This document shows, piece after piece, positions 14,802 to 38,295 of a stretch of 64,000 nucleotides of DNA. Source of the stretch: Hoyosella subflava DQS3-9A1 (GTDB lineage Bacteria; Actinomycetota; Actinomycetes; Mycobacteriales; Mycobacteriaceae); NCBI RefSeq assembly GCF_000214175.1, contig NC_015564.1, positions 1,116,001-1,180,000 of the forward strand. Direction: 5' to 3'. How positions within the stretch are numbered: position 1 is the first letter of the stretch; every line of letters begins with the position of its first letter. Below the pieces are notes generated by a model. The model searched no databases, was not told the origin of the DNA, and worked only from the letters and a program-made list of their open reading frames with translations. The translations under genes were made by a program, and so were the position numbers.

Positions 14802-14818
14802 ACGCCAACGCAGAGAAG

Positions 14819-14850
14819 GCTCCAGTAGACAAGGTCTACTGGAGCTTTTT
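14819..14850 (+). terminator. intrinsic terminator after the MobA/S9 gene
   Basis: GCTCCAGTAGAC (14819-14830) and GTCTACTGGAGC (14834-14845) form a perfect 12-bp stem around AAG, followed directly by TTTTT. This is a textbook Rho-independent terminator and separates the clpX-aroQ-mobA unit from the importer operon. Confidence 0.92.
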
Positions 14851-14881
14851 CGTCTCTCGCCGTCCGTCCGATATCGGTTAG

Positions 14882-14900
14882 TGAAAACGATTGTCGTTAC
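14882..14900 (+). promoter_or_regulatory. Zur/Fur-like operator upstream of the ABC importer operon
   Basis: TGAAAACGATTGTCG at 14882-14896 matches the TGAAAATGATTTTCA-type box bound by actinobacterial zinc regulator Zur at 12 of 15 positions, and differs at only 2 of 15 from the site at 30881. It lies in an imperfect palindrome (TTAGTG...GTTACTA) about 110 bp before the GTG at 15008; TATACT at 14902-14907 region could be a -10. The DtxR/IdeR iron box has a different sequence and is not matched. Confidence 0.55.
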
Positions 14901-15007
14901 TATATACTCCCGTCCGGTAAGCACCACCGATTCGGTAGAGAAAAGTGCGCCTGACGCGTGTTTTGCTACGGAATCGGCGTGATCGATCTTGGGGGAAGGA
15001 ACCTTTC

Positions 15008-16696
15008 GTGACGACACGTTCATCGGCTGCGTCTTGGTTGCGAGGAGGTGGAGCGGTCGTCGTGGCCGCTGCGCTTGCTCTGACCGGGTGCAGCTCATCG
15101 CAAACCGATTCACCCGGCGTTACCGGCGCCGCAGCTTCGCAGAGCATTAACCCGCAAGACCCGTCCACCCTGCAGGACGGCGGGGACCTGCGCATCCCGG
15201 TCGACGCGCTGCCCACCAACTACAACCCGATCCAGATCAATGGCGCGCGCCTCGTGACATGGCAGCTAGCGGAAGCCATCCTGCCCAGCGTCCACCTCGA
15301 TGGCGCGGACGGCGGGCACGAGCTGAACACCGCATTCTTCGACTCCGCCGAGTTGACGGCCGACAGCCCGCAAACCATTACGTACAAGATCAATGATGAC
15401 GCTGTCTGGAGCAACGGTCGCCCGCTCACCTGGGAAGATCTCGCCTCGCAGGTGAGTGCACTCAGTGGCAGCGACGAGGCGTTCGAGGGATACAGCACGG
15501 TCGGCTACAGCGATGTCGCCGCAGTCGAACGCGGTGAGACAGACAAGGAAGCGATCCTCACGTTCGAGAACACGTTCGCTGAGTGGGAGGGCCTCTTCAA
15601 CCTCCTCCTCCCGCTGGAAGTCACGGGGAACGCGGAGGAGTTCAACGAAGGCTGGATGAACGGCCCGACGATCACCTCAGGACCGTTCCAGGTGGACAGC
15701 ATCGACGACACAGCGAAGGCAATCGTCCTCGAACGTAACCCGGAGTGGTGGGCCGAGACTCCGCCGCTCGATCGCATCATCCTTCGCGCACTTGACTCCG
15801 CAGCACGCGCGGATGAACTCGCCAATGGGGGCATCGACCTGTATCCGATCGGCGGAAACGTCGACCTGTACACCCGAGCGCAGAACATGAGCGGCGTTGA
15901 GGTCCGCACCGCCCCAGAGCGGCGCGCCGGGCAGCTCACGCTGAACGGTTCCGACGACGCGATACTCCATGACCTCGAGTTGCGGCAGGCGATCGCCCAG
16001 GCAATTGACCCTCAGGGAGTCACTGACGTCGTGCTCGGTACGATCTCGCCCGGTGCTCAAGCGGTCGGCAATCATATTCTCCCGCCCACTGATCCAGGCT
16101 ATGAGGACAACTCAGATGTCCTTCCGTACGACCCCGAAGCTGCCGCGAGCGCACTTGAAGAACTCGGATGGTCGCTCGACGGGGATTTCCGCGCCAAGGA
16201 TGACGAACGTCTGAGCTTGCGGCTCATCGCCCAGTCGGCACCGGTGTTCGACACTGTTGCGGGAGTGATCCGTAACCAGCTGAACGAGGTTGGCGTCCAC
16301 GTCGATGTGGTGTCGGTCCCATCGGATCAGTTCTATGACGGATACCTGTTACCTGGCGCGTTTGACCTCGCTGTGTTCGAGTGGACCAAGTCCGCATCCC
16401 CGTTCGCTCACGACCGGCCGGTCTTCCAGACTCCTGAGGGAGACGACTTCGGTTCGAACTTCGGCCGCGTTGTCGTCCCCGGGGTCGAGGAACTCTACGA
16501 CGAAGGACTCGCAGAGCTTGATACGGACCGGCGCAACGAGATCGCGAACGAAATTGATCGGCTCGCTTGGGAGTACGCGCACCACATCCCGCTTTACGCG
16601 GAATCAGGCGCATACGCGGTGCGTGAAGGCCTCGCCAACTACGGTGCCCGGGGGCTTGCTCACTACGGGTTCGCGAAGGCTGGCTGGGTGAAGTGA
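15008..16696 (+). CDS. ABC transporter substrate-binding lipoprotein, peptide/nickel family 5
   Basis: A 562-residue family-5 extracytoplasmic binding protein. GTG 15008 is chosen because GGAAGGA lies just upstream and the frame then begins with a signal peptide ending in the lipobox LTGC (lipidated Cys28). The mature part shows family features: WQLAEAILPS, a YKINDDAVWSNGRPLTWEDL segment, and a C-terminal HHIPLYAESGAYAVR. Such proteins capture oligopeptides, nickel, or metal-opine complexes (for example CntA for staphylopine). It heads a four-gene operon with two permeases and a double ATPase, all joined by 4-base overlaps. A Zur-like operator precedes it, which favours a metal-chelate ligand; that is inference. 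Confidence 0.92.
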   Translation: MTTRSSAASWLRGGGAVVVAAALALTGCSSSQTDSPGVTGAAASQSINPQDPSTLQDGGDLRIPVDALPTNYNPIQINGARLVTWQLAEAILPSVHLDGADGGHELNTAFFDSAELTADSPQTITYKINDDAVWSNGRPLTWEDLASQVSALSGSDEAFEGYSTVGYSDVAAVERGETDKEAILTFENTFAEWEGLFNLLLPLEVTGNAEEFNEGWMNGPTITSGPFQVDSIDDTAKAIVLERNPEWWAETPPLDRIILRALDSAARADELANGGIDLYPIGGNVDLYTRAQNMSGVEVRTAPERRAGQLTLNGSDDAILHDLELRQAIAQAIDPQGVTDVVLGTISPGAQAVGNHILPPTDPGYEDNSDVLPYDPEAAASALEELGWSLDGDFRAKDDERLSLRLIAQSAPVFDTVAGVIRNQLNEVGVHVDVVSVPSDQFYDGYLLPGAFDLAVFEWTKSASPFAHDRPVFQTPEGDDFGSNFGRVVVPGVEELYDEGLAELDTDRRNEIANEIDRLAWEYAHHIPLYAESGAYAVREGLANYGARGLAHYGFAKAGWVK

Positions 16697-17697
16697 CCCG
16701 CACCGCCGTGGCCAGCCAGTACCTCGCGGGACGGCTTGCGGGTCGTGTCCTGCTGTGTCTGGCGGCCACGTTCTTTGCGTTCGCTTTGGCGTCAATGACG
16801 TTCGACCCGATGGCTGAGCTCCAGATGCGCCAGCCGCCGCCAGCGCCTGGCGTTCTGGAAGCTCAGGCAGCGAGGCTCGCCCTCGACTCACCGATTCCGC
16901 TGCGCTTCCTCGAGTGGATCGCTGGCTTCCCATCGGGTGACTTCGGAACGACAGTCGGTGGCCGTCCGATCGGAGATGAGCTGTGGTCCCGGGCGGGTAC
17001 AAGCATGCGACTGTTCTTCGCGGGCAGCATCGTCGCGATCCTCCTGGGAGTTGTCGTGGGGGTCCGCAGCGCACTGAACTCACGTCACGCCAGCGACCAC
17101 CTCACGATGTTCTGGACGCTCGCACTTCTCGCGATACCGGTGTTCGTCCTCGGCACCCTGCTCAAGCTGCTCTGGCTTCCCATCAATGAGGCCGCGGGAA
17201 CGCAGATCCTCTACTTCTCGGGGGAAAGCACTGTCGGCGCGAACTACACCGGATGGGAGGCGGTGCTCGACCGGATGCGGCACATGGTCCTGCCAACCCT
17301 TGCGATCGCGCTGCCGCAAATCGCCTATTTCAGCCGCTACCAGCGCGCCGCGATGCTCGAGATTCTGAACAGTGAGTTCGTGCGGACAGCCCGCGCCAAA
17401 GGTCTCCGCTGGCGCCAGGCCGTGCGCATTCACGCGCTGCGCGTGGCCCTCATACCTATGGTGTCGCTGTTCGCGTTCAGCTTCGGCCTGCATATCGTCG
17501 GGGGCGTGTTCACCGAACGCATATTCGGCTGGCACGGCATGGGGGACTGGTTGCTCACCGGCATCCACGATCATGACGCACGGATTGTCGCCATGGTCAC
17601 GCTGTTCATCGGCGTAGTTATCGTTATCGCAGGCTGGCTCTCGGACATCGTCCTCGTGATGCTTGATCCACGCATCAGGACGGACGGTGCGACGTGA
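16693..17697 (+). CDS. ABC transporter permease, DppB/OppB type
   Basis: A 334-residue integral membrane protein with an N-terminal helix, a periplasmic loop (about residues 30-95) and five further helices containing the BPD_transp_1 domain. The cytoplasmic EAA-like loop is EFVRTARAKGLRWRQAVRIHALR, which contacts the ATPase. GTG 16693 overlaps the stop of the binding-protein gene (GTGA), so translation is coupled. It forms the membrane channel with the next gene product. Confidence 0.93.
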   Translation: MTRTAVASQYLAGRLAGRVLLCLAATFFAFALASMTFDPMAELQMRQPPPAPGVLEAQAARLALDSPIPLRFLEWIAGFPSGDFGTTVGGRPIGDELWSRAGTSMRLFFAGSIVAILLGVVVGVRSALNSRHASDHLTMFWTLALLAIPVFVLGTLLKLLWLPINEAAGTQILYFSGESTVGANYTGWEAVLDRMRHMVLPTLAIALPQIAYFSRYQRAAMLEILNSEFVRTARAKGLRWRQAVRIHALRVALIPMVSLFAFSFGLHIVGGVFTERIFGWHGMGDWLLTGIHDHDARIVAMVTLFIGVVIVIAGWLSDIVLVMLDPRIRTDGAT

Positions 17698-18515
17698 AGC
17701 ACCCGCTGACGCTGGCTGGTTCCGCAATCCTGTTGACGATCGCTGGAATCGCTTTCCTTGGGCCGTGGCTCTACCCACACGATCACATTACGCAGAACCA
17801 CGCCGCAGTACTGCAGCCACCTTCTTGGGAGCATTGGCTGGGCACCTCCCGCCTCGGTGAGGATCTTCTCGCACAGACCATGCGGGGCTTGCAGAAGTCG
17901 CTTCTGATCGGGCTGGCGGTCGCGGTGTTGTCCACTGCAGTTGCTGCCATCGTCGGGACCCTCGCCGGCTATTACGGCGGCAGAGTCGACCGGGGCCTGA
18001 TGTGGTGCGTGGACATGCTGTTGATCCTTCCGACATTCCTCGTCGTCGCCGTGATGTCCCCGGTTCTGCGCGGACAGTCCTGGCTATTGCTCGTTGTCGT
18101 CATTGCGATGTTTCAGTGGACGCTCGCGTCCCGGATCGTGCGTGCCCGGGCCATGAGCTTGCGGGAGCGCGGGTTTGTTCGCGCTGCTGAATACATGGGG
18201 GCGCGCGGCCCGCGTGTCATCCGCACGCACCTGATTCCGAACATGGCGCCGCTTCTCATCATCGACTGCACCATCAATGTGGGTGTCGCGGTGATCGCGG
18301 AGGCGGGGCTCAGCTATTTCGGATTCGGTGTGCGTCCGCCTGACGTGTCGCTGGGCACGTTGATCGGGATTGGCAGTAACTCGGCAATCACCTACCCCTG
18401 GGTCTTCCTGGTACCTGTCGCGTTCCTCATCACCACCGTGATGGCTGTCGGCCTGATCGGCGAGGGGTTGCGCAGGACGATCGACCGCGAATCAGACAAG
18501 GCGGCACTGGTATGA
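17694..18515 (+). CDS. ABC transporter permease, DppC/OppC type
   Basis: A 273-residue second permease with six predicted helices. The periplasmic loop holds WEHWLGTSRLGEDLLAQ, typical of DppC/NikC (LGTDxxGRD pattern, here with Arg-Leu-Gly-Glu), and the coupling loop is GFVRAAEYMGARGPRVIRTHL. GTG 17694 overlaps the stop of the preceding permease. It pairs with that permease to form the translocation path. Confidence 0.93.
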   Translation: MKHPLTLAGSAILLTIAGIAFLGPWLYPHDHITQNHAAVLQPPSWEHWLGTSRLGEDLLAQTMRGLQKSLLIGLAVAVLSTAVAAIVGTLAGYYGGRVDRGLMWCVDMLLILPTFLVVAVMSPVLRGQSWLLLVVVIAMFQWTLASRIVRARAMSLRERGFVRAAEYMGARGPRVIRTHLIPNMAPLLIIDCTINVGVAVIAEAGLSYFGFGVRPPDVSLGTLIGIGSNSAITYPWVFLVPVAFLITTVMAVGLIGEGLRRTIDRESDKAALV

Positions 18516-20083
18516 CGAGCGTTCTCGAGGTCAGGGATCTGACGGTGCGGACCGGTCCACAGACGCTAATCAACAACATAGCGTTCACGCTCTGCGAAGG
18601 ACGTACGCTCGCGCTAGTGGGCGCGTCTGGTTCCGGTAAATCGCTCACTGCGCTGGCGGTGATGGGACTGCTCGGACATGAATTGCGGGCATCGGGCTCA
18701 GTGCGCCTGGGAGGCAAGGAGATACTCGGCCTGGGCGACCGGGAATTGTCGCGGCTGAGGGGTCGCCGCCTGACGTTGGTCTCACAGGATCCTCTTGCCT
18801 CACTCACGCCGGTGCATACTGTGGGCGCGCAGGTTGCCGAAGCGGTGCGCATTCATCAACGGGTTTCACGTGCAGATGCCTGGAAGCGGGCGGTCGCGAT
18901 GCTCACGCGAGTGGGGATAGAGGACGCCGAGCAACGGGCGCGGAGCTATCCGCACGAGTTCTCCGGTGGGATGCGGCAGCGCGTAGCGATTGCGATGGCG
19001 ATGATCAACGAGCCTGACCTGTTGATTGCTGACGAGCCCACTAGTGCACTGGATCCTACGATCGCAGCTCAGATCATGGAACTTTTCGGTGCTCTGCAAC
19101 GCGAAACGGGCACCGCAATTCTCTTCATCACCCATGACGTTTCGCTTGTCGAGCGGTACTGCGACGAACTGGTTCTGCTCGAAGGTGGATCAGTCGTCGA
19201 GCACGGTACCGTTCGGGAGGTCATTGCGGCGCCGCGCAGTGCGGAGTTACGGGCGATGGTGGCGGCGACCCCGCACTGGGAGCCCGTCGACCGTCCCGCC
19301 GTGACTGGCCCGGTCGCGTTGTCCGTGGCGGGGATGACTCGGACGTTTCGTGCACGGCGTCTACGCGAACGGAAGGTGACGGCGCTGGAGGATGTGACCT
19401 TTACGGTGCATGCCGGGGAAGCATTCGCGATTGTCGGCGAGTCAGGGGCGGGCAAGTCAACCTTGCTGCGTGAGATCCTGCACGCCGGTACAGCGCCGCC
19501 TGGGGTGCTGAGCATCTTCGGAGAGGATCCGTCCACTTTCTCGCGAGCTGAGCGGCAGAACTTGCGACGCGAAGTCCAGATCGTCCTCCAGGACCCGGGT
19601 GATTCGCTCGACCCGCTGATGTCGATTGCGTCAATCGTCGCCGAGCCGTTGCACATTCACCGGGTTCCTGGTGTGGATGCCCGCGTTCGGCGGTTGCTGC
19701 GGATCGTCGGTCTGACGGCGGACTTCGCGGAACGCAGATCTCGCCAGCTGTCAGGCGGTCAGCGGCAGCGCGTCGCCATCGCCCGGGCGCTTGCGCTCGA
19801 ACCGAGAATTCTGCTGCTCGACGAGCCAGTGTCGGCCCTGGACATGGCGTTACGGTCCGAGATCATGGCGCTACTCGACTCGCTGCGGCAGAGCTTAGGC
19901 CTGACGTACGTGATGGTGTCGCATGACATGCCACTGGTGCACCAATATTCGGACCGGGTCGCCGTGATGTGGCAAGGGCGGATTGTCGAACAAGGTCCCG
20001 CCGGTGAGGTTCTCGGCGCGCCGCAGCACCCTTATACTCAGCGGCTCGTCGCAGCAGTGGGGCTCGCGCCTTCTCCTATCTGA
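18512..20083 (+). CDS. ABC transporter dual ATPase (DppD-DppF fusion)
   Basis: A 523-residue protein with two complete nucleotide-binding domains. Domain 1 has Walker A GASGSGKS, signature FSGGMRQR and Walker B DLLIADEPTSALD; domain 2, from about residue 270, has GESGAGKS, LSGGQRQR and ILLLDEPVSALD, with a C-terminal PQHPYTQRL segment typical of the oligopeptide/nickel class. It powers import by the two permeases. ATG 18512 overlaps the previous stop (ATGA). Fused ATPases of this type are common in actinobacteria and cover the roles of DppD and DppF. Confidence 0.93.
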   Translation: MTSVLEVRDLTVRTGPQTLINNIAFTLCEGRTLALVGASGSGKSLTALAVMGLLGHELRASGSVRLGGKEILGLGDRELSRLRGRRLTLVSQDPLASLTPVHTVGAQVAEAVRIHQRVSRADAWKRAVAMLTRVGIEDAEQRARSYPHEFSGGMRQRVAIAMAMINEPDLLIADEPTSALDPTIAAQIMELFGALQRETGTAILFITHDVSLVERYCDELVLLEGGSVVEHGTVREVIAAPRSAELRAMVAATPHWEPVDRPAVTGPVALSVAGMTRTFRARRLRERKVTALEDVTFTVHAGEAFAIVGESGAGKSTLLREILHAGTAPPGVLSIFGEDPSTFSRAERQNLRREVQIVLQDPGDSLDPLMSIASIVAEPLHIHRVPGVDARVRRLLRIVGLTADFAERRSRQLSGGQRQRVAIARALALEPRILLLDEPVSALDMALRSEIMALLDSLRQSLGLTYVMVSHDMPLVHQYSDRVAVMWQGRIVEQGPAGEVLGAPQHPYTQRLVAAVGLAPSPI

Positions 20084-20166: not shown

Positions 20167-21201
20167 ATGCGGATCGGTCGTCGACTTCGGGCTCAGCGCA
20201 GCGTGCGGGCCTCGGTGCTTGCTGGGCTCCTGTTCGTGCTTGCGGCGTGCGGCAATAGCCCCGATAGCCCGGATGGTCCCGGCGGATCGGGGGGTGAAGC
20301 GGGGCCGGTCACCGTTTCGCATGCGTTCGGCGACACTGCTATTCCGGAGCCGCCGGATCGCGTGGTGACGTGGGGATGGGGCAGTGCCGACGCTGCGATA
20401 GCGCTAGGCGTGGTTCCCGCAGCCATCCCGTTTCAGAATTATGGCGGTGACGAGGAGGGGGTGCTGCCCTGGATCCGGGACGCGCTCGACGAACAGGGTG
20501 CGGACACGCCCACAGTGTTGCCCAATGTCACCGAGGTTCCGTTCGAGGCGATTGCTGCCGCTGAGCCCGATCTGATTCTCGCCGTGTACTCAGGCATTAC
20601 GGAGCAGGAGTACGAACTGTTGTCGCAGATTGCTCCCACCGTGGCGTACCCCGATCAGCCATGGGCGACCGAGTGGCGAGACACTATCCGCATCGTCGGT
20701 GACGCGCTTGGGCGCTCAGCGCAAGCGGCGGAGCTATTGGAAGACATCGACGTTCGGGTTGTCGCCAAAGCCGCCGAGAACCCGGTACTGCAGGGCAAAT
20801 CAGTAGCGATGGTGTGGGACACCCCCGAAGCGTTCTATGTGTACAAACCAGCGGACCCTAGGTTTGCGTTCACCCTCGATCTCGGATTCGTGACCGCAGA
20901 CAGCCTTGATGACCTGGCCAGTGGGGATTCGACGTTCTACTTCACGCTGAGCAAGGAGCGACTCGGTGACCTCACTAGCGACGTTCTTGTGACGTATTCC
21001 GACACTCCCGAAGAGTCAGCGGCGTTTCTCGCCTCGCCGGAAGCCGAGTTGATGGACCAGGTGCAGAGGGGCGCGGTCGCTGAGGTAGTCGGTACTGCGT
21101 TCATCGCCTCCGTGTCGCCGCCCACAGCGCTCTCTCTGACATGGGGACTGGATTCGTATGTCGAACTGTTGTCGGCAGCCGCGGAGCGGGCTGAGGGATA
21201 A
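20167..21201 (+). CDS. FecB/FepB-like siderophore-binding lipoprotein
   Basis: A 344-residue cluster-B (helical backbone) binding protein. The signal peptide ends in LAAC (lipidated Cys28), followed by a Gly/Pro/Ser/Asp linker. The TroA/FecB-like fold is shown by PPDRVVTWGWGSADAAIALGVVP, PFEAIAAAEPDLILA and AQIAPTVAYPDQPW-type segments. It is expected to bind ferric siderophores or other metal chelates at the cell surface. CAGGAG stands before ATG 20167. It lies 83 bp after the ATPase, so it may belong to the same operon; no separate FecCD permease or ATPase is present, so it would need either a distant partner or the importer next door. Confidence 0.88.
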   Translation: MRIGRRLRAQRSVRASVLAGLLFVLAACGNSPDSPDGPGGSGGEAGPVTVSHAFGDTAIPEPPDRVVTWGWGSADAAIALGVVPAAIPFQNYGGDEEGVLPWIRDALDEQGADTPTVLPNVTEVPFEAIAAAEPDLILAVYSGITEQEYELLSQIAPTVAYPDQPWATEWRDTIRIVGDALGRSAQAAELLEDIDVRVVAKAAENPVLQGKSVAMVWDTPEAFYVYKPADPRFAFTLDLGFVTADSLDDLASGDSTFYFTLSKERLGDLTSDVLVTYSDTPEESAAFLASPEAELMDQVQRGAVAEVVGTAFIASVSPPTALSLTWGLDSYVELLSAAAERAEG

Positions 21202-29495: not shown

Positions 29496-30872
29496 GTGAC
29501 GGTGGCGCAGGAGTTGTGGGCAAGGGGACAAGCACTTCGCGGTGAAACGCCCAGAAGTGCGCACAGCATGCTGGTTCTGAGCGATGACCGGGACCCACTC
29601 GGGATTCTCGAGGCGCAAAACAAAACCAGACTTGCCGACCTCGTCGCGGTGCGCACCGGACGGATGCTGCAGTCACCGTTCGCCTATTACCGCGGAACGG
29701 CGGCTGTGATGGCCGCGGATCTCAAATATGACCCGGTGATCGGCGAACAGGTGGTGTGCTGCGGGGACGCACATATCTCCAACTTCGGGCTGTTCGCCTC
29801 CCCGGAGCGACGGGTCCTCTTTGACCTCAATGATTTTGACGAGGCATCGAACGCACCGTGGGAGTGGGATGTGAAGCGTCTCGCGGCGAGTGTCGTAGTC
29901 GGTGGACGCGACAATGGTCTTTCGGACAAGGCATGCTCGGACGCTGTGCACGCGGCGGTGCGCAATTACCGTGAGTCGCTGCGGACGCTATGTGACATGA
30001 GCGCGATCGATCGCTACTTCTTCCAGGTTGAGACGGACTGGATGGAAGCGACGATCAAAGCCAAGAACCGGAAAGTGCTGCGCCGCACCGTGAAGAAGGC
30101 GCGCAGCCGAACGTCAGACCAAATTCTCAGCAAGCTGGTATCGACCGATGACATGCGCATCAAAGACGTTCCGCCCGTCACCCAGCATGTCGATCACGCG
30201 TCCATCGAGCAGCTTGACGACCTATTCGCGCAGTACCGCCGCACGCTCCGGGCGGATACGGCGCTGCTGCTCTCTCAGTTCCGGTTGGTCGACTACGTCC
30301 TGCGGGTTGTCGGGGTCGGGTCGGTGGGCACGCGGTGTTACGTGGCTCTATTCGTAGGCCCGGGGGATGAGCCGCTCTTTCTGCAGGTGAAAGAGGCGCC
30401 CCCCTCGGTGCTCGAAACGTTCGGTGGATGGCGATCCGCCCTGCCTGGACGCGCGGCTGTCGTCAATAAGGGCGTGCAAGGTTTCCGAGTGGTGTCAGGA
30501 CAGAGGATTCTGCAGGCGCAATCCGATCCATTCCTTGGCTGGATTCAGGGCGGTGCGGGGGGGAGCGGACTGACTCGTCGCGTTGACTATTACGTTCGGC
30601 AGTTCCGCGATATGAAGGGCTCCGTCGAGGTTGCCGAGCTGTCAGCGGAGCAGTTTCCCCTGTACGGCGCCCTGTGTGCCCGCTTGCTTGCGCGGGCCCA
30701 CAGTCAGAGTCCTGCGTTTGCGACGATCGGCGGGTACATGGGTAAGTCCGAGGCTTTCGACGATGCGGTCGCGGTGTGGGCACTGAAATACGCCGATCAG
30801 GCGGAGAAGGACTACGAGAACTTAGCGAAGGCGGTGAAGACCGGAAGGCTCGCTGCAGAGTCAGGCGTCTAG
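29496..30872 (+). CDS. DUF2252 family protein, kinase-like
   Basis: A 458-residue DUF2252 protein. GETPRSAHSML near the N-terminus, FAYYRGTAAVMAADL, CCGDAHISNFG and LNDFDEASNAPWEWDVKRLAAS are the family blocks. The GDxHxxN...DFD arrangement resembles the catalytic loop and metal-binding Asp of aminoglycoside phosphotransferase-like kinases, so ATP-dependent phosphorylation is possible; this is inference. GTG 29496 gives the usual distance from the N-terminus to the first block; ATG 29427 would add 23 residues. It lies 76 bp before the PLP operon but an operator lies between. Confidence 0.82.
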   Translation: MTVAQELWARGQALRGETPRSAHSMLVLSDDRDPLGILEAQNKTRLADLVAVRTGRMLQSPFAYYRGTAAVMAADLKYDPVIGEQVVCCGDAHISNFGLFASPERRVLFDLNDFDEASNAPWEWDVKRLAASVVVGGRDNGLSDKACSDAVHAAVRNYRESLRTLCDMSAIDRYFFQVETDWMEATIKAKNRKVLRRTVKKARSRTSDQILSKLVSTDDMRIKDVPPVTQHVDHASIEQLDDLFAQYRRTLRADTALLLSQFRLVDYVLRVVGVGSVGTRCYVALFVGPGDEPLFLQVKEAPPSVLETFGGWRSALPGRAAVVNKGVQGFRVVSGQRILQAQSDPFLGWIQGGAGGSGLTRRVDYYVRQFRDMKGSVEVAELSAEQFPLYGALCARLLARAHSQSPAFATIGGYMGKSEAFDDAVAVWALKYADQAEKDYENLAKAVKTGRLAAESGV

Positions 30873-30877
30873 GGCTG

Positions 30878-30898
30878 TATTGAAAACGATTATCAATA
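30878..30898 (+). promoter_or_regulatory. Zur/Fur-like operator upstream of the putative metallophore operon
   Basis: TATTGA (30878-30883) and TCAATA (30893-30898) are perfect inverted arms, and the core TGAAAACGATTATCA (30881-30895) matches the TGAAAATGATTTTCA-type Zur box at 13 of 15 positions. It lies 51 bp before the start codon of the operon and 5 bp after the DUF2252 stop. The core differs at 2 positions from the site at 14882, suggesting one shared regulator. Confidence 0.6.
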
Positions 30899-30948
30899 TG
30901 GAATAGACTGCTCGCGATCGTGCCGCCCCTATTGGAGGACGCCTACGC

Positions 30949-32469
30949 ATGGCAGCAGTCGCAGATACCTGCACCGAACCTTTAGTCACCATTCATCCGG
31001 CCGCGCCGCCGGTCTACCTCGACCCTGCACTCGCCCCATCGATGCAGCGCACTCTCGCTGACCGTGCTTTCCTGCACAGCCTTACTCGCAGCCTTGGCTC
31101 ACCACTCAACCTCCTCCTGCCTGAGCAGTTTGCGGCGAACGTCGACGCATTCACGAGCGTGTTCAGAGCACATCGCATCCGCGGGACTGTTTACTACGCC
31201 CACAAAGCCAATCGGTCGTCGGCGCTCGTGCGGCACCTCGCGGCGACACAGGCACGAATAGACATCGCGTCGCTAGGGGAGTTACAGCACGCGCTTGCCA
31301 GTGGGTTCACACCCGACCGGATCATGGCGACAGGTCCGAAGACGCCAGAGTTCCTCTGGCTCGCCGCGCGCAGTGGAGTCGTCGTCAACGTCGACTCGCC
31401 AGCAGAACTGGAAACGCTCGCGCGTATCTGCGCCGCTCACCGCTTGCCACGTCTCCCTGTGATGACGAGGTTCTCGGGGTTCAGTGCCTCTGGCACCACC
31501 ATCGCGTCCCGGCTATCCCGTTTCGGTATTCACGAGAGCGATGTTCGGAAGTATCTCGAAGCTCTTGACCGCAACGCTGCACACCTCGAACTTGTCGGTG
31601 TCGCATACCATCTCGACACGATTGGCGTTGCGGAAAAAGCCCTGGCGCTCGAGGGCTCGCTACGCCTGATCCACGAATTCCACGCCGCAGGTCACCGGCC
31701 CCGCGCCATCGACATCGGTGGCGGCTACGGCGTCAGCTACGTCGCGCGTGCATACCAGTGGGAGCAGTTCACAACCGAACTCACCAGAGCTGTTCTGGGG
31801 CAGCGCCCTTCCTTCACATGGCGCGGGCACGGGTACGGTCTGCGTGCGGAGAATGGCAGGCTGCGCGGCGCACTCAGCTTGTACCCCGCGCACCGTCCAG
31901 TCTCTGGACCCGCATACCTCGATGAGCTGCTGAGGCAGCGGTCACCTACCTGGGGACAGCCCTATGCCACGCTCCTGCAGGAACTCATGCTCGACCTGAT
32001 CGTCGAGCCGGGCCGCGCCCTCCTCGATCAGTGCGGAACAGTTCTCGCGAGGGTACTTGAAGTCCGAGAGGCCGACAGTGCAACGACTTTCGTGCGCCTG
32101 GATATCAATCACAGTGATGTCAGTCTCGAAGAGCATGGCGTCGCCATGGATCCGATCGTCATACCGGAACAAGAATCGTCGCGCGAGCCCGGCAGCGGCT
32201 ATCTCATCGGGAACCTCTGTCTCGAAGCGGACTTCATCAGTCGGCGAAAGATCTATTTCCGCTCCATGCCCCGCGCAGGTGACCTTCTCGCCTTTCCAAA
32301 CACCGCGGGGTACTTCATGGACTTCAATGCCGATCATGCGCTGCATCAGCCCATCGCGCGCAAGGTAGCGCTGACCGGAGACGGCGGCTGGTGCCTTGAC
32401 GACGAATACTGGCCGCACACAGGGCATCTGGCCGCGGCTACTCAGAAGACAGAGGGAGAATATTCATGA
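30949..32469 (+). CDS. fold-type III PLP-dependent decarboxylase-like enzyme (Y4yA-like)
   Basis: A 506-residue protein of the ornithine/diaminopimelate/arginine decarboxylase superfamily. YYAHKAN carries the PLP lysine (Lys86), IDIGGGYG binds the phosphate, EPGRALLDQCG matches the EPGR motif, and GNLCLEAD provides the catalytic-site Cys424 from the partner subunit. With all key residues present it should decarboxylate an amino acid or a related adduct. It resembles Y4yA-type enzymes more than true LysA or SpeA, judging by its long insertions (about residues 280-340). GGAGG precedes ATG 30949. It is the first gene of a six-gene coupled operon, and its TGA overlaps the ATG of the next gene. 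Confidence 0.85.
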   Translation: MAAVADTCTEPLVTIHPAAPPVYLDPALAPSMQRTLADRAFLHSLTRSLGSPLNLLLPEQFAANVDAFTSVFRAHRIRGTVYYAHKANRSSALVRHLAATQARIDIASLGELQHALASGFTPDRIMATGPKTPEFLWLAARSGVVVNVDSPAELETLARICAAHRLPRLPVMTRFSGFSASGTTIASRLSRFGIHESDVRKYLEALDRNAAHLELVGVAYHLDTIGVAEKALALEGSLRLIHEFHAAGHRPRAIDIGGGYGVSYVARAYQWEQFTTELTRAVLGQRPSFTWRGHGYGLRAENGRLRGALSLYPAHRPVSGPAYLDELLRQRSPTWGQPYATLLQELMLDLIVEPGRALLDQCGTVLARVLEVREADSATTFVRLDINHSDVSLEEHGVAMDPIVIPEQESSREPGSGYLIGNLCLEADFISRRKIYFRSMPRAGDLLAFPNTAGYFMDFNADHALHQPIARKVALTGDGGWCLDDEYWPHTGHLAAATQKTEGEYS

Positions 32470-33797
32470 GATGCGACAGCATCACCGAGGTCATCGGTGA
32501 TACGCCGCTGGTGCGAATCAGCCCGGAAATCCACGGGCTGAAGAACATTGACCTCTACGCCAAACTCGAGATGCTCAACCCATTCGGATCGGTCAAAGAC
32601 CGTGCTGCCTGGAGCATGGTGCGGGAATCGCTGGGGGATGCCCGCGCTGAAGGTCAGACAGTCATCGAACTATCGAGCGGCAACACCGCGAAAGCTCTCG
32701 CGGTGATTTCGGGCATGCATGGGGTGCCGTTCAAAAGCGTGACCAACCGCATGAAGGTCCCCGAAATCAAAGACTTACTGCTGCTCATCGGAGCCGACAT
32801 CGAGGAACTTCCAGGGCAGGCGGAATGCCTGGACCCCACTAATGTCGACGATCCACTCACGCGCATTCACCAAGCGATCGCCCAGGACTCGACGTACTTG
32901 CACACTGACCAGTACTTCAACCAGCGCAATACCGCCGCCCACATCGACAGTACGGGGCCTGAAATCATCGCCGACCTCGACGGGCAGGCTCCCGACTATT
33001 TCATCGCGTGCGTCGGCACCGCTGGTTCATCCACCGGTGTCGCGAAGGTGTTGCGGGAGGCCCGCGACGATGTGAATGTCATCGGTCTGGTCGCCCACAA
33101 ATCAGATTTCATTCCCGGCATCCGGAACATCGATGAAGTGCACGAAGTGGGGCTATTCGATCCCGATACCTACGACACAATTGAATCCGTCAGCGCGGAC
33201 GAAGCGATCGACGGAATGCTTGACCTCGTCCGGCGGTGCGGGATGCTTGCCGGGCCCACCGGCGGCGCCGCATACTACGGTGCGCAGCGATACCTGCAGA
33301 AGGTCGACGGCCAGCTCGAAGCTGAGGGCCTCGGCCAACGCCGCTCGGCTGTCTTCATCGTGTGCGATCGTGTCGAGTCGTACATGAGCTACGTGCGAGC
33401 TCGGCGGCCCGAACTGCTCGGTCAAACAGCCCGGCCACATTCGGTCACCACGGTGCGCGCCGACGAGCTCTCAGGGGTGACTGCACTGGATCCGGGCGAC
33501 GCTCAGGAGTGGATTGACGCCGCGAATCCGATTGTGGTGGATCTGCGGGGCGCCTTCGCCTACAGCGCATCGCACATTGCCGGAGCCATCAACATTGTGG
33601 ATGAACTGTTCGGTGAGCTCCTGCGCGGCGGCCTGCCCTTCGGCAAGTCTCAGCCAGCGCTTCTGACATGCCCCGTAGGTGAGAAGTCAGCGAAATACGC
33701 AGCGCTCCTGAAGCGCATGGGCCACGAAAACGTACGCAGCCTCGAAGGTGGCATCGTCGCGTGGCGCGACGCTGGTGCCCCGTTAGTGAGGGACTGA
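32466..33797 (+). CDS. SbnA/cysteine-synthase-like PLP enzyme fused to a C-terminal rhodanese domain
   Basis: A 443-residue two-domain protein. Residues 1-about 320 are a fold-II beta-replacement enzyme: NPFGSVKDR with the PLP Lys44, SSGNT (71-74 region) binding the substrate carboxylate, and GTAGSSTG binding the phosphate. In SbnA this chemistry joins O-phosphoserine and glutamate on the way to 2,3-diaminopropionate. Residues about 345-443 are a rhodanese: VVDLRGAFAYSASHIAGA and LTCPVGEKSAKY with the persulfide-forming Cys402. The fusion points to a product containing transferred sulfur or to a sulfur-delivered beta-replacement. ATG overlaps the previous stop; the next gene starts 1 base after this stop. 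Confidence 0.87.
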   Translation: MRCDSITEVIGDTPLVRISPEIHGLKNIDLYAKLEMLNPFGSVKDRAAWSMVRESLGDARAEGQTVIELSSGNTAKALAVISGMHGVPFKSVTNRMKVPEIKDLLLLIGADIEELPGQAECLDPTNVDDPLTRIHQAIAQDSTYLHTDQYFNQRNTAAHIDSTGPEIIADLDGQAPDYFIACVGTAGSSTGVAKVLREARDDVNVIGLVAHKSDFIPGIRNIDEVHEVGLFDPDTYDTIESVSADEAIDGMLDLVRRCGMLAGPTGGAAYYGAQRYLQKVDGQLEAEGLGQRRSAVFIVCDRVESYMSYVRARRPELLGQTARPHSVTTVRADELSGVTALDPGDAQEWIDAANPIVVDLRGAFAYSASHIAGAINIVDELFGELLRGGLPFGKSQPALLTCPVGEKSAKYAALLKRMGHENVRSLEGGIVAWRDAGAPLVRD

Positions 33798-33798
33798 C

Positions 33799-35019
33799 AT
33801 GATGCACGCGGCTGTTCTCCCCGCAGGCCTCGCCGAACTCGCTGACTGGCATGACGAGCTGCGCGCACAGTTTCCGCAAATCACCGCGGACCCGGGCCTG
33901 GCGTTCCTCGACAGCTCTGCCACCGCGCAGAAACCGTATGCGGTGCTCGAGAGCGTGCAGGACTACTTGCGCACCCGGAACGCCAATGCCGGGCGTGGTT
34001 CGTACCCGTGGGCGAACCAGACAACCACGATGATCGACAGCACTCGCGAGCAGGTCAAACGGTTTCTCCACGACTGCGCGCCTGCAACGTCGGGCGTCCA
34101 TTTCGTGAGCGGCGCGACCGAAGGACTTCGCCGTATCGCGCTGGACTGGCTGGTGCACGAACTCAGGGACGGCGACGAGATCATCGTGCCGTTCGCTGAC
34201 CATCAAGCCAACGCACTGTGCTGGCTGGAAGCACGAGATCAACTCGCCGCTCAGGGAATCCGGGTCGACGTCCACCCGATGCCATACGAGCCTGAATCGG
34301 GTGACTACTGTCAGGAATCGCTTGCTGCGCTGATCAATTCGCGAACCCGATTCATCGCCGCGACGCACGTCCATCACGTGTATGGCGTGGACATGAACGT
34401 CCATCGGCTCAGGGAGACCGCGGGACCGGACGTCGTCATCTGCCTCGACGCCGCCCAGAGTGCAGGCCACCTCAACCTGGACGTGTCAGCGGTCGGAGCC
34501 GACTTCGTTGTCTTCTCCGGCCACAAAGCAATGGCGATGCCTGGTATCGGGGTGGTGTGGAGCCGAAACCAGCGCGGTGCGGCGTTCGCTCTGAAGGGCT
34601 GGTCGGGGAGCCCTCACACCGTGGGCATTCTCAGCCTGTCTGCGGCACTGGATTGGCTGCAGCGCGCAGGACTCCACGACATCGACACGTGGACAACTGG
34701 TCTCGGCGCCATCCTCACTGACGCATTGAACCGGCTGGGGTCCTACGAGGTCCTGGGCTGCCAGGCCAGCCTCTCACTCGACTCCCCGGTGCAACGCCGG
34801 CAAGGCATAGTGTCGTTCCGCCATCGCAGTATCGACGCACATGACCTCGGATTCGTCCTCGAGAGCCATGGCTTCCTTGTTCGTGCGGACAGTCACTGTC
34901 AAGCACGCGACGGAGAAACCGCACCGTCGGTGCGCGTGAGTACCCACGTCTACAACACCGTCGAAGAGATCGTCCGACTCGTCAACTTTCTCACCGAACT
35001 GAATGAGGAGCCCTCGTGA
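33799..35019 (+). CDS. class V aminotransferase/cysteine desulfurase-like protein
   Basis: A 406-residue fold-I PLP enzyme. FSGHKAM carries the PLP lysine (Lys243), CLDAAQSAGH the Asp and Gln that bind the cofactor, and a cysteine (Cys367 in RADSHCQAR) stands where SufS-type desulfurases hold the persulfide-forming Cys. It could be a cysteine desulfurase that loads the rhodanese domain encoded just upstream, or a lyase/epimerase of the isopenicillin-N-epimerase group. Two consecutive ATG codons start at 33799. Its stop overlaps the GTG of the ATP-grasp gene. This is not a housekeeping suf gene, since no other suf genes are near. Confidence 0.85.
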   Translation: MMHAAVLPAGLAELADWHDELRAQFPQITADPGLAFLDSSATAQKPYAVLESVQDYLRTRNANAGRGSYPWANQTTTMIDSTREQVKRFLHDCAPATSGVHFVSGATEGLRRIALDWLVHELRDGDEIIVPFADHQANALCWLEARDQLAAQGIRVDVHPMPYEPESGDYCQESLAALINSRTRFIAATHVHHVYGVDMNVHRLRETAGPDVVICLDAAQSAGHLNLDVSAVGADFVVFSGHKAMAMPGIGVVWSRNQRGAAFALKGWSGSPHTVGILSLSAALDWLQRAGLHDIDTWTTGLGAILTDALNRLGSYEVLGCQASLSLDSPVQRRQGIVSFRHRSIDAHDLGFVLESHGFLVRADSHCQARDGETAPSVRVSTHVYNTVEEIVRLVNFLTELNEEPS

Positions 35020-36293
35020 GCACCGGCCGCCAGCACACCGTCGCGATCGTCGACGTCTACGCGCCCTCTGTGCGCCTGGCACGGGCATTCGCCGATGCTG
35101 GACACAAAGTCATCCGCGTCCAGAGCACCGTCAATGTTCCGCGCGTGTACAAGCCGGGCCTCGACGAATCGCTCCTCCGAGAGATATTCGGCGGGAACAT
35201 CATTCACGATGCCGATGTGTCAGCAACATTAGATTCCCTAAGCGAGTTCAGCCCTGATGCGGTCATCGCCGGCGGTGAATGCGGTGTAGAGCTTGCCGAC
35301 CTGCTGAGCGAAACCCTCGCTCTGCCCACCAACGGCACCGCTCACAGCGAGGCGCGACGCAACAAGTTCAATCAGGTTGAGGTTCTGCGCGCTGCAGGGC
35401 TGCGCGCGACCCGGCAGATCTTTGTGGAGAGCAGCGAGCACGTTCGGTCGTGGCATAACGCGCTCGGCGGACGGGTCGTCATCAAACCGCTGCGCAGCGC
35501 AGGCAACGATGGCGTCCAATTCTGCGATGATCCCGATGAATCGATGCGCGCCTTCGAGGCGATACGCGATGCGGAGAACATCTTCTCCGTCCGTAACGAA
35601 GGCGTGGTCGCTCAGGAATATCTTGTGGGCACCGAGTTCGTGGTGAACACCGTGAGCTGTGAGAGCCAGCATCGCGTCACAGATGTCTGGCGGTACACGA
35701 AGATGTCAGCTAACGGCGTGGCTGACCGGGTGAGCGCCGCGGTTTCCGTTCCACCTGACCACTCCCGCTACGACGCTCTCACCGCCTATGCCTTCGCAGT
35801 GCTCGACGCGCTTGGCATCCAGTTCGGTCCAGCGCACCTCGAAATCATGGACACCGCGGAAGGACCATGCCTCGTAGAAATCGGTGCACGGATTTCTGGA
35901 GCGGACACGGCCTATTACGCGATGCTCGCCGGTGGTGAGTCGCAGATCGAGTGGACCATCGAGGCCTACACAGACCCAATGCGATTCAAAGCGCGCTCCC
36001 AGACGCCACACGAAGTGCATAACCACGTCGCGATGGTGTTTCTGACATCGCCGCGGCAGGGCGTTCTGCGCGGCTATCCCTTGCTCGCGCATGTTGAGGC
36101 ACTTGAGAGTTTCCACAACCAGATTCAGATTGTGAAACCTGGGCAACCGATAGCCGTCACGATCTCAGATACCACTGAACCGATGATGATCGGTCTCGCG
36201 CACCCCGGGCCATCCGTCCTCGAGCGTGATTTGCTCACCGTCCACTACCTCGACGGTCACGGCTTCTACGACATCGAAATGGGGACCGCGTGA
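35016..36293 (+). CDS. ATP-grasp ligase
   Basis: A 425-residue ATP-grasp enzyme. The pre-ATP-grasp domain begins VAIVDVYAPSVRLARAF; RVVIKPLRSAGNDGVQFC is the ATP-binding beta-strand pair with its Lys, EYLVGTEFVVNTVS follows, and PCLVEIGARISGADT carries the metal-binding Glu and Asn-equivalent region. The closest groups are L-amino-acid ligases and carboxylate-amine ligases of small-molecule pathways, which form amide bonds through acyl phosphates. In the operon it would join building blocks made by the PLP enzymes, replacing an NRPS. GTG 35016 overlaps the previous stop. Confidence 0.87.
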   Translation: MSTGRQHTVAIVDVYAPSVRLARAFADAGHKVIRVQSTVNVPRVYKPGLDESLLREIFGGNIIHDADVSATLDSLSEFSPDAVIAGGECGVELADLLSETLALPTNGTAHSEARRNKFNQVEVLRAAGLRATRQIFVESSEHVRSWHNALGGRVVIKPLRSAGNDGVQFCDDPDESMRAFEAIRDAENIFSVRNEGVVAQEYLVGTEFVVNTVSCESQHRVTDVWRYTKMSANGVADRVSAAVSVPPDHSRYDALTAYAFAVLDALGIQFGPAHLEIMDTAEGPCLVEIGARISGADTAYYAMLAGGESQIEWTIEAYTDPMRFKARSQTPHEVHNHVAMVFLTSPRQGVLRGYPLLAHVEALESFHNQIQIVKPGQPIAVTISDTTEPMMIGLAHPGPSVLERDLLTVHYLDGHGFYDIEMGTA

Positions 36294-37576
36294 AAGGTTT
36301 CGCGCTGTACCGGGAAATGTGGCAGATACCGGGGGCACCCAGCCTTGTCAGCGGGGGTTTCGTCGCGCGGCTGGGACAGGGCGTCACCGTCATAGCGTGG
36401 CTGCTGCTAGTACGCGAAACTCGCGGAAGCTACTCGGAAGCAGCGCTTGTCGCGTCAGCAATCTCCCTTGCCACCGCGTGCGCCGCACCGGTGGCGGGTC
36501 GGCTCGCCGACCGGTTCAGTGCCAGCAAAGTGCTTCCGTACTATGCAGTTACCTACTCGATGAGCCAGCTCGCACTGCTCGCGGCGGTGCTGACCGGCCA
36601 GCCGATGACGCTGCTGGTGACGCTCGCGATCGTTTCCGGTGCGTCATTCCCGCCGGTTTCTCCGGCCGTCCGTGCGACCTGGTCTGTGCTGACGTCACCT
36701 GCATCAGGGCGCGCACCGCTGCGGCCCACCGCGATGGCGGCAGAGTCAGCGATGTTCGAATTCGTGTTCGTGATCGGCCCACTGATTCTCTCCACTTCTA
36801 TCCTCGCCGCAGGGCTGTTCGCCGGCGCGGAATCAGCCGCGCTGAGCGGGCCGGCACTGGCGCTCGGCGGATCAGCAGTATGCACATTGCTCGGCACATT
36901 GTGGATTTCGAGGGGTACTGCGATGCGTGCGGCGCGCACGCCGAGCGCGGGGTTCACCCGCGGCCTCGGTCCGCTGCGATCCCGCGGTTTCGTGGTGCTG
37001 CTGGTGAGCGCAGCGGGAGTAGCGCTGTCATTCGGTGCAGCACCAGTCGCCCTCGCTGCCTACGCCGAAGAACAGCACGGACTCTCTGGTGGCGCTGTCA
37101 CCGGAGTGCTCATCGCCGTGTGGTCCCTGGGCAGCGCCGCGGTCGGACTTTGGTTCGGGAGTCTTCGGCTGCTCGCACCGCTCCGGTCGCAGTACCTGGT
37201 CCTGCTGGCCGGACTCGGCGCGGGATATGCCCTGTGGGTCGTGGCACCGAGTACCTGGCTGCTCGGCGTGCTGCTGGTCTTCACGGGTGGCGTCATCGCG
37301 CCAGCGCTCGCGGTGACGGCGAACCTTGTCGCCGAACTCACCGCTGAAGCGATGCGTAACGAGGCATACACGTGGCTCACTACGACAAATATGGCGATTG
37401 CTGCGCTCGGGGCAGCGACTGCAGGGTTCGTCGTCGAACACCCCCCGCTGCCCACGTTCGCGGCTGGGCACAACGGTTTCCTGCTGTGTGCCGTGGCGGT
37501 CCTGTTCGCGCTGGCAGCCGCGATGTTTGTACGGGTACCGACACGCGGAGCGGAATTGCAGGAGGTGGCCGCATGA
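36290..37576 (+). CDS. MFS transporter, probable exporter
   Basis: A 428-residue major facilitator protein with about 12 transmembrane helices. The loop between helices 2 and 3 reads GRLADRFSASKVLPY, the GxLaDrxGrrxxl-type motif A. GTG 36290 overlaps the ATP-grasp stop. Its place inside a biosynthetic operon suggests export of the product across the cytoplasmic membrane. The class resembles drug and siderophore exporters, but the substrate is not determinable from sequence. Confidence 0.9.
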   Translation: MKGFALYREMWQIPGAPSLVSGGFVARLGQGVTVIAWLLLVRETRGSYSEAALVASAISLATACAAPVAGRLADRFSASKVLPYYAVTYSMSQLALLAAVLTGQPMTLLVTLAIVSGASFPPVSPAVRATWSVLTSPASGRAPLRPTAMAAESAMFEFVFVIGPLILSTSILAAGLFAGAESAALSGPALALGGSAVCTLLGTLWISRGTAMRAARTPSAGFTRGLGPLRSRGFVVLLVSAAGVALSFGAAPVALAAYAEEQHGLSGGAVTGVLIAVWSLGSAAVGLWFGSLRLLAPLRSQYLVLLAGLGAGYALWVVAPSTWLLGVLLVFTGGVIAPALAVTANLVAELTAEAMRNEAYTWLTTTNMAIAALGAATAGFVVEHPPLPTFAAGHNGFLLCAVAVLFALAAAMFVRVPTRGAELQEVAA

Positions 37577-38295
37577 TCAGTACGGAGGTGGCGAGGGATC
37601 TCGTTACCCGGTGGGACGCTCAGCAAGAGCGCTACGCCTACCAGCGAGAAGAACGGTTCGGTGTCGTGTGCGCGGTGCTTACCGCGCTCGCCGTCGAGGG
37701 GCCGGTAATCGATCTGGGGTGCGGGCCAGGCTCGCTTGCTGCGCGTATCGCCGCGCGCGTGCCAAGTGTTCAACCCGTCGGACTCGACGCCGATCCGTTT
37801 CTGCTCGCGCTGGGCAAAGCCGTTTATCCAGAGGTCGAACTCGCCGAAACTCTCGTCGGTGCCCCCGGATGGGAGGAATCCATCGTGAGTTTCGGCCAGC
37901 CCGCCGCGGTGGTGTCGTCCACGGCGCTGCATTACCCGTCACCGACACAGCTTGCGGACATCTACCGCACGCTCGTCCGGCTTCTTCGTGATCGTGGTGT
38001 GCTGATCAATGCGGACATGTTCCCACTCTCCACCCCAGTGCTCGACACCGTCGCCTCCGCGATGACACGGTGCGAACCGGCCGGAGAAGACTGGGAGGGC
38101 TGGTGGCGTGACGTGCACACGGACAAGCGATTGTCACTTCCGCTCGCGGCGCGAGCGAGGACAGTATTGCCACATGGCGGTGACAATGCGTTGTCCGCCG
38201 ACGCGCACATTGCGCTGATGCAGGCGGCGGGTTTTCGCGAAGCCGGGGAGGTATGGCGCGACGGGCGCAGTGCCGTCATCGTCGCCGTGAGGTAG
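37573..38295 (+). CDS. class I SAM-dependent methyltransferase
   Basis: A 240-residue methyltransferase. VIDLGCGPGSLAARI is motif I binding S-adenosylmethionine, VGLDADPFLLALGK the acidic motif II loop, and VVSSTALHYPSPTQLADIY a motif IV-like region. It ends the six-gene operon; its ATG 37573 overlaps the MFS stop, and GGAGG stands just before. It would methylate the operon's product at N, O or S; the position is unknown. Confidence 0.88.
   Translation: MISTEVARDLVTRWDAQQERYAYQREERFGVVCAVLTALAVEGPVIDLGCGPGSLAARIAARVPSVQPVGLDADPFLLALGKAVYPEVELAETLVGAPGWEESIVSFGQPAAVVSSTALHYPSPTQLADIYRTLVRLLRDRGVLINADMFPLSTPVLDTVASAMTRCEPAGEDWEGWWRDVHTDKRLSLPLAARARTVLPHGGDNALSADAHIALMQAAGFREAGEVWRDGRSAVIVAVR

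Follow-up and report, generated by a model that had tools for sequence, protein, structure and literature searches.

What does a compact six-gene operon of Hoyosella subflava DQS3-9A1 make, and which signal switches it on? The operon (30949-38295) lies in a stretch of 64,000 nucleotides, here called the window, at positions 1,116,001-1,180,000 on contig 3 of the 4.86-Mb genome of this soil actinobacterium. An original prediction, made from the letters alone, saw in it a zinc-regulated metallophore operon that dispenses with a non-ribosomal peptide synthetase (NRPS) and joins amino-acid-derived units by ATP-grasp amide formation. Our analysis adds an importer operon (15008-20083), 16 kb upstream and absent from that prediction, and suggests that the biosynthesis and import halves of a Zur-repressed zinc-metallophore system with an aminopolycarboxylate-type ligand are both encoded in the window, a reading to which we assign a probability of about 0.7. 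Several comparative lines point the same way: the boxes, their rarity in the genome and the genetic linkage of the two operons among relatives. On this evidence a Zur-controlled zinc metallophore system is well supported, both in its control and in its role, though unproven; the product class is a proposal drawn from the relatives of the enzymes.

A predicted Zur box precedes a six-gene operon

The six open reading frames (ORFs) of the operon are all intact on the plus strand, and their junctions consist of four 4-base overlaps and one 1-base gap (33797/33799), exactly as predicted for a coupled operon. They encode DEC, a fold-III pyridoxal phosphate (PLP)-dependent Orn/DAP/Arg decarboxylase (30949-32469; PF02784/PF00278); a PALP-rhodanese fusion resembling aspergillomarasmine synthase (32466-33797; PF00291 and PF00581); AT5, a cysteine-desulfurase-like class-V aminotransferase (33799-35019; PF00266); an ATP-grasp ligase (35016-36293; PF13535); a major facilitator superfamily (MFS) transporter, the proposed exporter, its direction of transport being presumed (36290-37576; PF07690); and MT, a class-I S-adenosylmethionine-dependent methyltransferase (37573-38295). 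Pfam and NCBIfam searches agreed with the domain families originally claimed for the six genes, with the SbnA, SufS and DdaF models staying below their cut-offs. Likewise, the claim that NRPS, IucA/IucC synthetase and opine dehydrogenase are missing held for these genes: the same searches found no NRPS among the six, no IucA/IucC synthetase among the six and two flanking genes, and neither a nicotianamine-synthase-like enzyme nor an opine dehydrogenase among the six; for the last three families the search covered these genes and not the remainder of the genome.

Upstream of the operon lies a candidate Zur box, TATTGAAAACGATTATCAATA (30878-30898, plus strand), that ends 50 bases before the first ATG and fits 15 of the 16 specified positions of a 21-bp actinobacterial Zur motif published by Choi et al. 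(2017; PMC5472717). This motif was used in place of a 15-bp version, which by itself separates poorly from background; a strict 17-mer built from the operon's site matched that site alone. Across the whole genome, the 21-bp motif at three or fewer mismatches gave 36 strand-hits at 21 sites, compared with five hits for the reversed control pattern, and just two sites had a single mismatch in their better orientation. These are 30878 and 14879, both in the window. Because of the match at 15 of 16 positions and the genome-wide rarity relative to the reversed control, the 30878 box exceeds what chance would give, which bears out the Zur-like dyad of the original prediction. The box is overlapped by a promoter-like sequence, TTGAAA-18-TAGACT (30880-30909, plus strand; 9/12), with a presumed promoter function; it was the only such site in a scan of 30760-31060, in which shuffled sequences yielded a mean of 0.1.

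A second box precedes an importer operon

The second one-mismatch site (14879-14899, plus strand; one mismatch on the minus strand, two on the plus strand) precedes the importer operon, and here too a promoter-like sequence overlaps it: GTGAAA-16-TATACT (14881-14908, plus strand; 9/12), the only one in a scan of 14750-15060 (mean for shuffles 0.1). Both operons thus carry a promoter site that matches the motif of the actinobacterial Zur regulon. The four overlapping genes of the importer operon, all on the plus strand, encode an SBP_bac_5 solute-binding lipoprotein, the proposed metallophore receptor (SBP; 15008-16696; PF00496), for which the GTG start at 15008 gives the lipobox LTGC; two ATP-binding cassette (ABC) permeases (16693-17697, PF00528; and 17694-18515, PF00528 and OppC_N); and a fused double ATPase (18512-20083; PF00005 in two stretches).

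The genome is also predicted to encode a Zur distinct from FurA. There are three FUR genes, whose neighbours we identified by eye: the first adjoins katG, the second a catalase gene, and the third ArsR-like, glycyl-tRNA synthetase (glyS) and uppS genes, the last of these settings being one that we take to be the zur arrangement of M. tuberculosis. Weaker motif sites occur at a CobW gene (3795821) and at a divergon of CobW/L31 versus L28-L33-S14-S18 (3642368; L31, L33, S14 and S18 named by eye), and these are classic Zur targets.

Boxes and importer genes in related genomes

One scan of genome contigs with the PALP protein yielded 62 loci that span Actinomycetes, Obscuribacterales/Melainabacteria and a few other metagenome-assembled genomes (MAGs). 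At three or fewer mismatches, 23/62 operon promoters had a box as against 6/451 control promoters (Fisher p 3e-18), and at one mismatch the counts were 7/62 and 0/451 (Fisher p 3e-7); these p values ignore the relatedness of the loci, and 15 of the 62 operons were tested in two windows (before DEC and at the transcription-unit start) and the controls in one window each. Controls were drawn from the same loci; promoters that lay < 700 bases from the start of the operon, belonged to core or metal-linked clusters or stood close to the end of a locus were excluded, which left 451. The box before DEC also has one mismatch in Hoyosella altamirensis (L034) and Hoyosella sp. YIM 151337 (L035), whose PALP genes are 98% and 86% identical, respectively, to that of the window, and a one-mismatch box lies upstream of the SBP gene in 4/4 genomes with an SBP orthologue in the first sample described below, our own and three relatives (L141-L144).

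The importer tends to travel with the operon. SBP orthologues (58-65% identity) adjoin the decarboxylase operon in seven of the 62 loci (L038, L040, L042, L057, L060, L074 and L076), all of which also carry the ATP-grasp gene. Boxes with one to three mismatches were found at 4/4 of the linked importer promoters covered, the other three (L042, L057 and L060) being cut by the locus end. In a first sample of 61 relatives, an SBP match at E ≤ 1e-60 occurred in 17 genomes, 13 of them at 31-41% identity; four genomes had an orthologue (at least 65%), all of them PALP-positive, and the PALP gene itself was present at ≥ 69% identity in five genomes, of which three belong to a single genus. Among 394 Actinomycetes genomes sampled across the class, SBP matches at E ≤ 1e-150 were confined to two genomes, both among the 19 (our own included) with PALP matches at E ≤ 1e-110, of which 17 had at least 69% identity. 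For the two samples together, SBP at ≥ 61% identity was found in five genomes, and 5/5 had the operon's PALP gene.

Zinc- or metallophore-type neighbours were present in 22 of the 62 loci: SBP_bac_5 (7), FecCD (7), FecB-like (6), ZnuA (5), ABC-3 (5) and CobW (5) genes, as well as genes for the zinc-free ribosomal proteins L31 (3), L28 (3) and S14 (2). As a yardstick for chance, three genomes of the genus carry three CobW-type and three ZnuA genes each, by which ∼0.7 of either kind would be expected in the 1.09 Mb of loci. In the Obscuribacterales-type loci L078-L080, the operon is preceded, at a distance of ∼1 kb, by a FUR-family gene of the same orientation (Pfam was run on L078 only). Collectively, these results support two parts of the original prediction: zinc control by Zur, as judged from the box, and a metallophore role, as judged from the linked metal-uptake genes in relatives.

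Gene content of related loci

Gene counts in the 62 loci come from a custom codon-usage ORF caller rather than a standard one, absences include loci cut by contig ends, and neighbours were named by Pfam on one representative per cluster or, for some, by reading the sequence. DEC and the PALP-rhodanese gene occurred together in 62/62 loci and the AT5 cluster in 54/62; tblastn found ATP-grasp in 16/62 and MFS in 12/62. By this comparison the conserved core is the Y4yA-like decarboxylase and the PALP-rhodanese protein, usually with the desulfurase-like enzyme, and the ATP-grasp ligase is an accessory. Because ATP-grasp is present in only 16 loci, amide ligation, the assembly logic put forward originally, does not hold as the core of the pathway. 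Homologues of all six genes are present in ten of the 62 loci (L034, L035, L037, L038, L040, L045, L048, L074, L076 and L077, within the fetched stretch), the methyltransferase being split in L034 and lying further away in L048; what recurs in every locus is the two-gene core. A second ATP-grasp-like gene (cluster 10), with a weak Pfam match below cut-off, was seen in eight loci.

Enzyme relatives and the predicted product

DEC shares 31.7-32.7% identity with three proteins annotated as Y4yA, in alignments of 474-480 columns (plasmid tblastn and BLAST), and this homology over most of its length places it with the Y4yA-family PLP enzymes. Its PLP lysine is kept in 61/63 aligned rows and a cysteine of the C-terminal domain in 62/63. 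Two alignments, A1 and A2, were made from 25 and 32 chosen sequences, a subset of those available. In all four plasmid loci fetched, a DEC relative had a PALP-type gene nearby, and the Bradyrhizobium locus additionally carried IucA/IucC and siderophore ABC genes.

The second enzyme had been called SbnA-like with a rhodanese domain. The fusion stands; the likeness to SbnA is loose (148 bits, cut-off 350; 166 bits to a generic CysK/CysM model). In structure comparisons of the predicted protein, only aspergillomarasmine A (AMA) synthase (8h4h/8h4q) matched over both domains; the solved enzyme aligned over residues 1-443 at 22-24% identity. In a profile search, AMA synthase aligned only to position 377, and it was not listed by a C-terminal query. 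On the modelled structure, the PALP domain with its C-terminal rhodanese and the full-length match make the protein aspergillomarasmine-synthase-like. Lys44 of the PALP domain and Cys402 of the rhodanese are present in 63/63 aligned rows each, and Lys243 and Cys367 of AT5 in 56/56 each. AT5 scored 233.7 bits with the NCBIfam sufS model (cut-off 475.1). The ATP-grasp protein exceeded the cut-off of PRK07206, reached 214.9 bits with the DdaF model (cut-off 840), and had an L-amino acid ligase as its closest solved chain (3.2e-50).

Fungal PALP-rhodanese enzymes use O-phosphoserine, which is joined to aspartate or alanine to give sulfur-free conjugates, and the marasmins, the product family of AMA synthase, chelate metals (PMC12751119). 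On this basis, we propose the following mechanism. With sufficient zinc, zinc-loaded Zur would sit on the boxes that overlap both promoters; when zinc falls, the operon 30949-38295 would be expressed. As suggested by its architecture and fungal relatives, the PALP-rhodanese enzyme would couple O-phosphoserine with an amino acid through the latter's amino group, and the aminocarboxyethyl arm so added would be turned into an aminoethyl arm by the Y4yA-like decarboxylase. The desulfurase-like enzyme would supply either an amino-group or a sulfur step, the ATP-grasp ligase might attach an amino acid in amide linkage, and a carboxylate or amine might be capped by the methyltransferase. The MFS protein would then export the ligand, and the SBP_bac_5 ABC system (15008-20083) would return its metal complex. 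Only tentatively do we extend this to a widespread and so far undescribed class of bacterial zincophore, in which a marasmin-like aminopolycarboxylate would be made by the PALP-rhodanese and decarboxylase pair, with sulfur from a desulfurase-rhodanese relay and an optional ATP-grasp extension, and taken up by an importer whose family differs per branch (SBP_bac_5, FecCD or ZnuABC).

To our knowledge, few zinc-specific metallophores have been described from Gram-positive bacteria. If correct, the reading would add a biosynthetic route likely to be missed by genome mining that takes NRPS, IucA/IucC or opine dehydrogenase as its markers, as well as an importer-exporter pair amenable to testing. 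The link to aspergillomarasmine suggests zinc-stripping ligands; ligands of this kind have been studied as metallo-beta-lactamase inhibitors.

Comparison with known systems

Judged by its gene content, the system would be a Zur-controlled zincophore made without an NRPS and set apart from NRPS-independent siderophore (NIS) and opine pathways. It shares the SbnA-like enzyme and the fold-III Y4yA-like decarboxylase with staphyloferrin B and Y4yA-type NIS loci, the Bradyrhizobium locus having both; unlike these, its six genes include neither an IucA/IucC synthetase nor a dehydrogenase (SbnB-like or octopine-type). The staphylopine Cnt system of Staphylococcus aureus pairs an MFS exporter with an SBP_bac_5-type ABC importer for one metallophore. 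The Hoyosella genes resemble this layout, with the roles proposed here, although the six lack the nicotianamine-synthase-like and opine dehydrogenase families of Cnt. With fungal AMA synthase and Fda4 they share the two-domain PALP-rhodanese architecture; in contrast to these, the Hoyosella protein is bacterial, only 22-24% identical, differs in domain orientation in the model, and is encoded in an operon with a decarboxylase, a desulfurase-like enzyme, a methyltransferase and a ligase. Searches of the open-licence PMC literature listed no paper whose title or opening lines of the abstract describe this gene set, which is weak evidence of absence.

Alternative explanations

Several observations weigh against a Zur-repressed aminopolycarboxylate system. 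Homologous operons do not consistently lack a Fur-family box, as the 23 boxed loci attest, yet the other 39 of the 62 have none at three or fewer mismatches before DEC or the transcription-unit start. They comprise all 16 Actinoplanes-type loci, several from Streptomyces and Kitasatospora, and the majority of MAGs from outside the actinobacteria. Two of the 39, L038 and L040, nonetheless have a box before their importer genes, and the Actinoplanes-type loci carry sequences like AAAACGATTACCGTTTC before znuA instead. The importer gene of one genome, G437, has no box in its fetched flank. Within our own genome, five of 12 sites examined (L123, L127, L129, L137 and L139) fall inside predicted ORFs, so that the motif has false positives at two to three mismatches. 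Four-gene versions of the operon, e.g. L036 and L041, have no recognised adjoining metal- or metallophore-type transporter. As to the enzymes, AMA synthase scores only a little higher in the structure comparison than single-domain CysM/CysK chains do, its two domains are oriented differently from those of our model (root-mean-square deviation ∼20), and its chemistry needs no desulfurase, yet a desulfurase-like gene is nearly always present in the loci.

One alternative is a sulfur-bearing zincophore, in which the desulfurase-like enzyme would take sulfur from cysteine and hand it as persulfide to the fused rhodanese; its addition to a serine-derived unit by the PALP domain would yield a zinc ligand of thiol or thioether type. 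The invariant cysteines Cys402 and Cys367, the intact PLP lysines and the adjacency of the desulfurase-like and PALP-rhodanese genes in most loci fit such a route, as does the close structural match of the PALP domain to M. tuberculosis CysM, an O-phosphoserine-dependent cysteine synthase. The fungal enzymes of the same architecture, however, give sulfur-free conjugates (PMC12751119), and eight of the 62 loci have no AT5-cluster gene, though all keep the rhodanese cysteine; four of the eight have another class-V cluster (one member Pfam-confirmed), where a crude motif search gave one unconvincing catalytic-cysteine match and none in the other three. A pure sulfur relay was demoted because the full-length structural match is AMA synthase, whose O-phosphoserine-aspartate product is sulfur-free; because the desulfurase and rhodanese cysteines are invariant, a sulfur-bearing product is kept as a possibility, albeit a doubtful one.

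The aminopolycarboxylate reading has also to be set against three departures that differ in pathway, metal or purpose. Zinc starvation could merely induce an operon whose product is no metallophore, for example an intracellular thiol or zinc buffer, or an antimetabolite of the dapdiamide kind. The four-gene version described above and the resemblance of the ATP-grasp protein to dapdiamide synthase and L-amino acid ligases would suit this, but importers of metal-ligand type are linked in many relatives and the MFS gene occurs in 12 of the 16 loci with ATP-grasp, and we consider such a product unlikely. Nickel, cobalt or iron might replace zinc as the metal, given that the importer family includes nickel-binding NikA-type proteins and some relatives adjoin FecCD siderophore-type ABC genes; this appears quite improbable, in that the box fits the published motif of the zinc regulator, CobW genes and those for zinc-free ribosomal proteins follow other motif sites of the genome, and ZnuABC and zinc-free ribosomal proteins are encoded next to the operon in relatives. 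The operon might finally be the [S,S]-ethylenediaminedisuccinate ([S,S]-EDDS; aes) pathway of Amycolatopsis japonicum in another host. Like that zincophore, the Hoyosella product would be a small amino-acid-derived metal ligand of an actinobacterium under Zur control, as read here from the boxes; EDDS production is Zur-controlled with aspartate as a precursor (PMC9252823), and a PALP enzyme and a decarboxylase would be chemically suited to ethylenediamine arms. As judged from the titles of the loci, none of the 62 is from Amycolatopsis, in a scan that finds close relatives only, and we regard identity with the EDDS pathway as very improbable.

Minor observations

A siderophore-type Peripla_BP_2 lipoprotein gene (20167-21201, plus strand; PF01497) begins 83 bases after the importer operon, without an adjoining FecCD permease; its membership is uncertain, and it may encode a second receptor of the same system. 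Elsewhere on contig 3, two Zur-like sites ∼1 kb apart (226069 and 227110; L125/L132) flank an ORF of 334 aa that resembles a membrane protein and adjoins a flavoprotein-like ORF, possibly a further zinc-regulated unit. A two-mismatch Zur-like site (1106231; L126) lies at the start of a methyltransferase-like ORF, from which a putative aminopeptidase N gene runs divergently; both genes were named by eye.

Among the related loci, the methyltransferase of H. altamirensis DSM 45258 (L034:14108-14826) is matched as two separate segments, apparently through a frameshift or an error of assembly. In L078-L082 (Obscuribacterales-type and two other MAGs), DEC, PALP-rhodanese and class-V genes are followed by flavin amine oxidoreductase and GNAT genes, with a methyltransferase gene also in three of the Obscuribacterales-type operons; these gene types resemble the fungal fusadapamide cluster. 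In Lolliginicoccus suaedae (L075), DEC and PALP-rhodanese (56% identity) are retained without a recognised AT5, and large unannotated ORFs of 874 and 497 aa lie downstream. Histidine-rich proteins of ∼100 aa with repeated HAHGxxCGH-like motifs, possibly zinc-binding, are encoded near the operon in L045 (15367-15669) and L060 (6312-6608). Seven Streptomyces-type loci carry an RsgA GTPase gene in divergent orientation to the operon; the idea that it is a zinc-sparing paralogue was rejected, since 7/7 keep three clustered cysteines; one RsgA sequence that was read shows a C-x4-C-x-H motif. Three genomes of genus g23, in the family of the window (G024, G164 and G414), carry a PALP-rhodanese-type gene at 48-50% identity, with a second copy in G024, hinting at a diverged sister clade. 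Finally, Mycobacterium avium plasmid pMAH135 (L173; 100184-117521) contains a run of cysteine-synthase, ornithine cyclodeaminase, Y4yA decarboxylase and MATE genes near copper-handling genes, a run that resembles an operon for building blocks of the staphyloferrin B or EDDS type.

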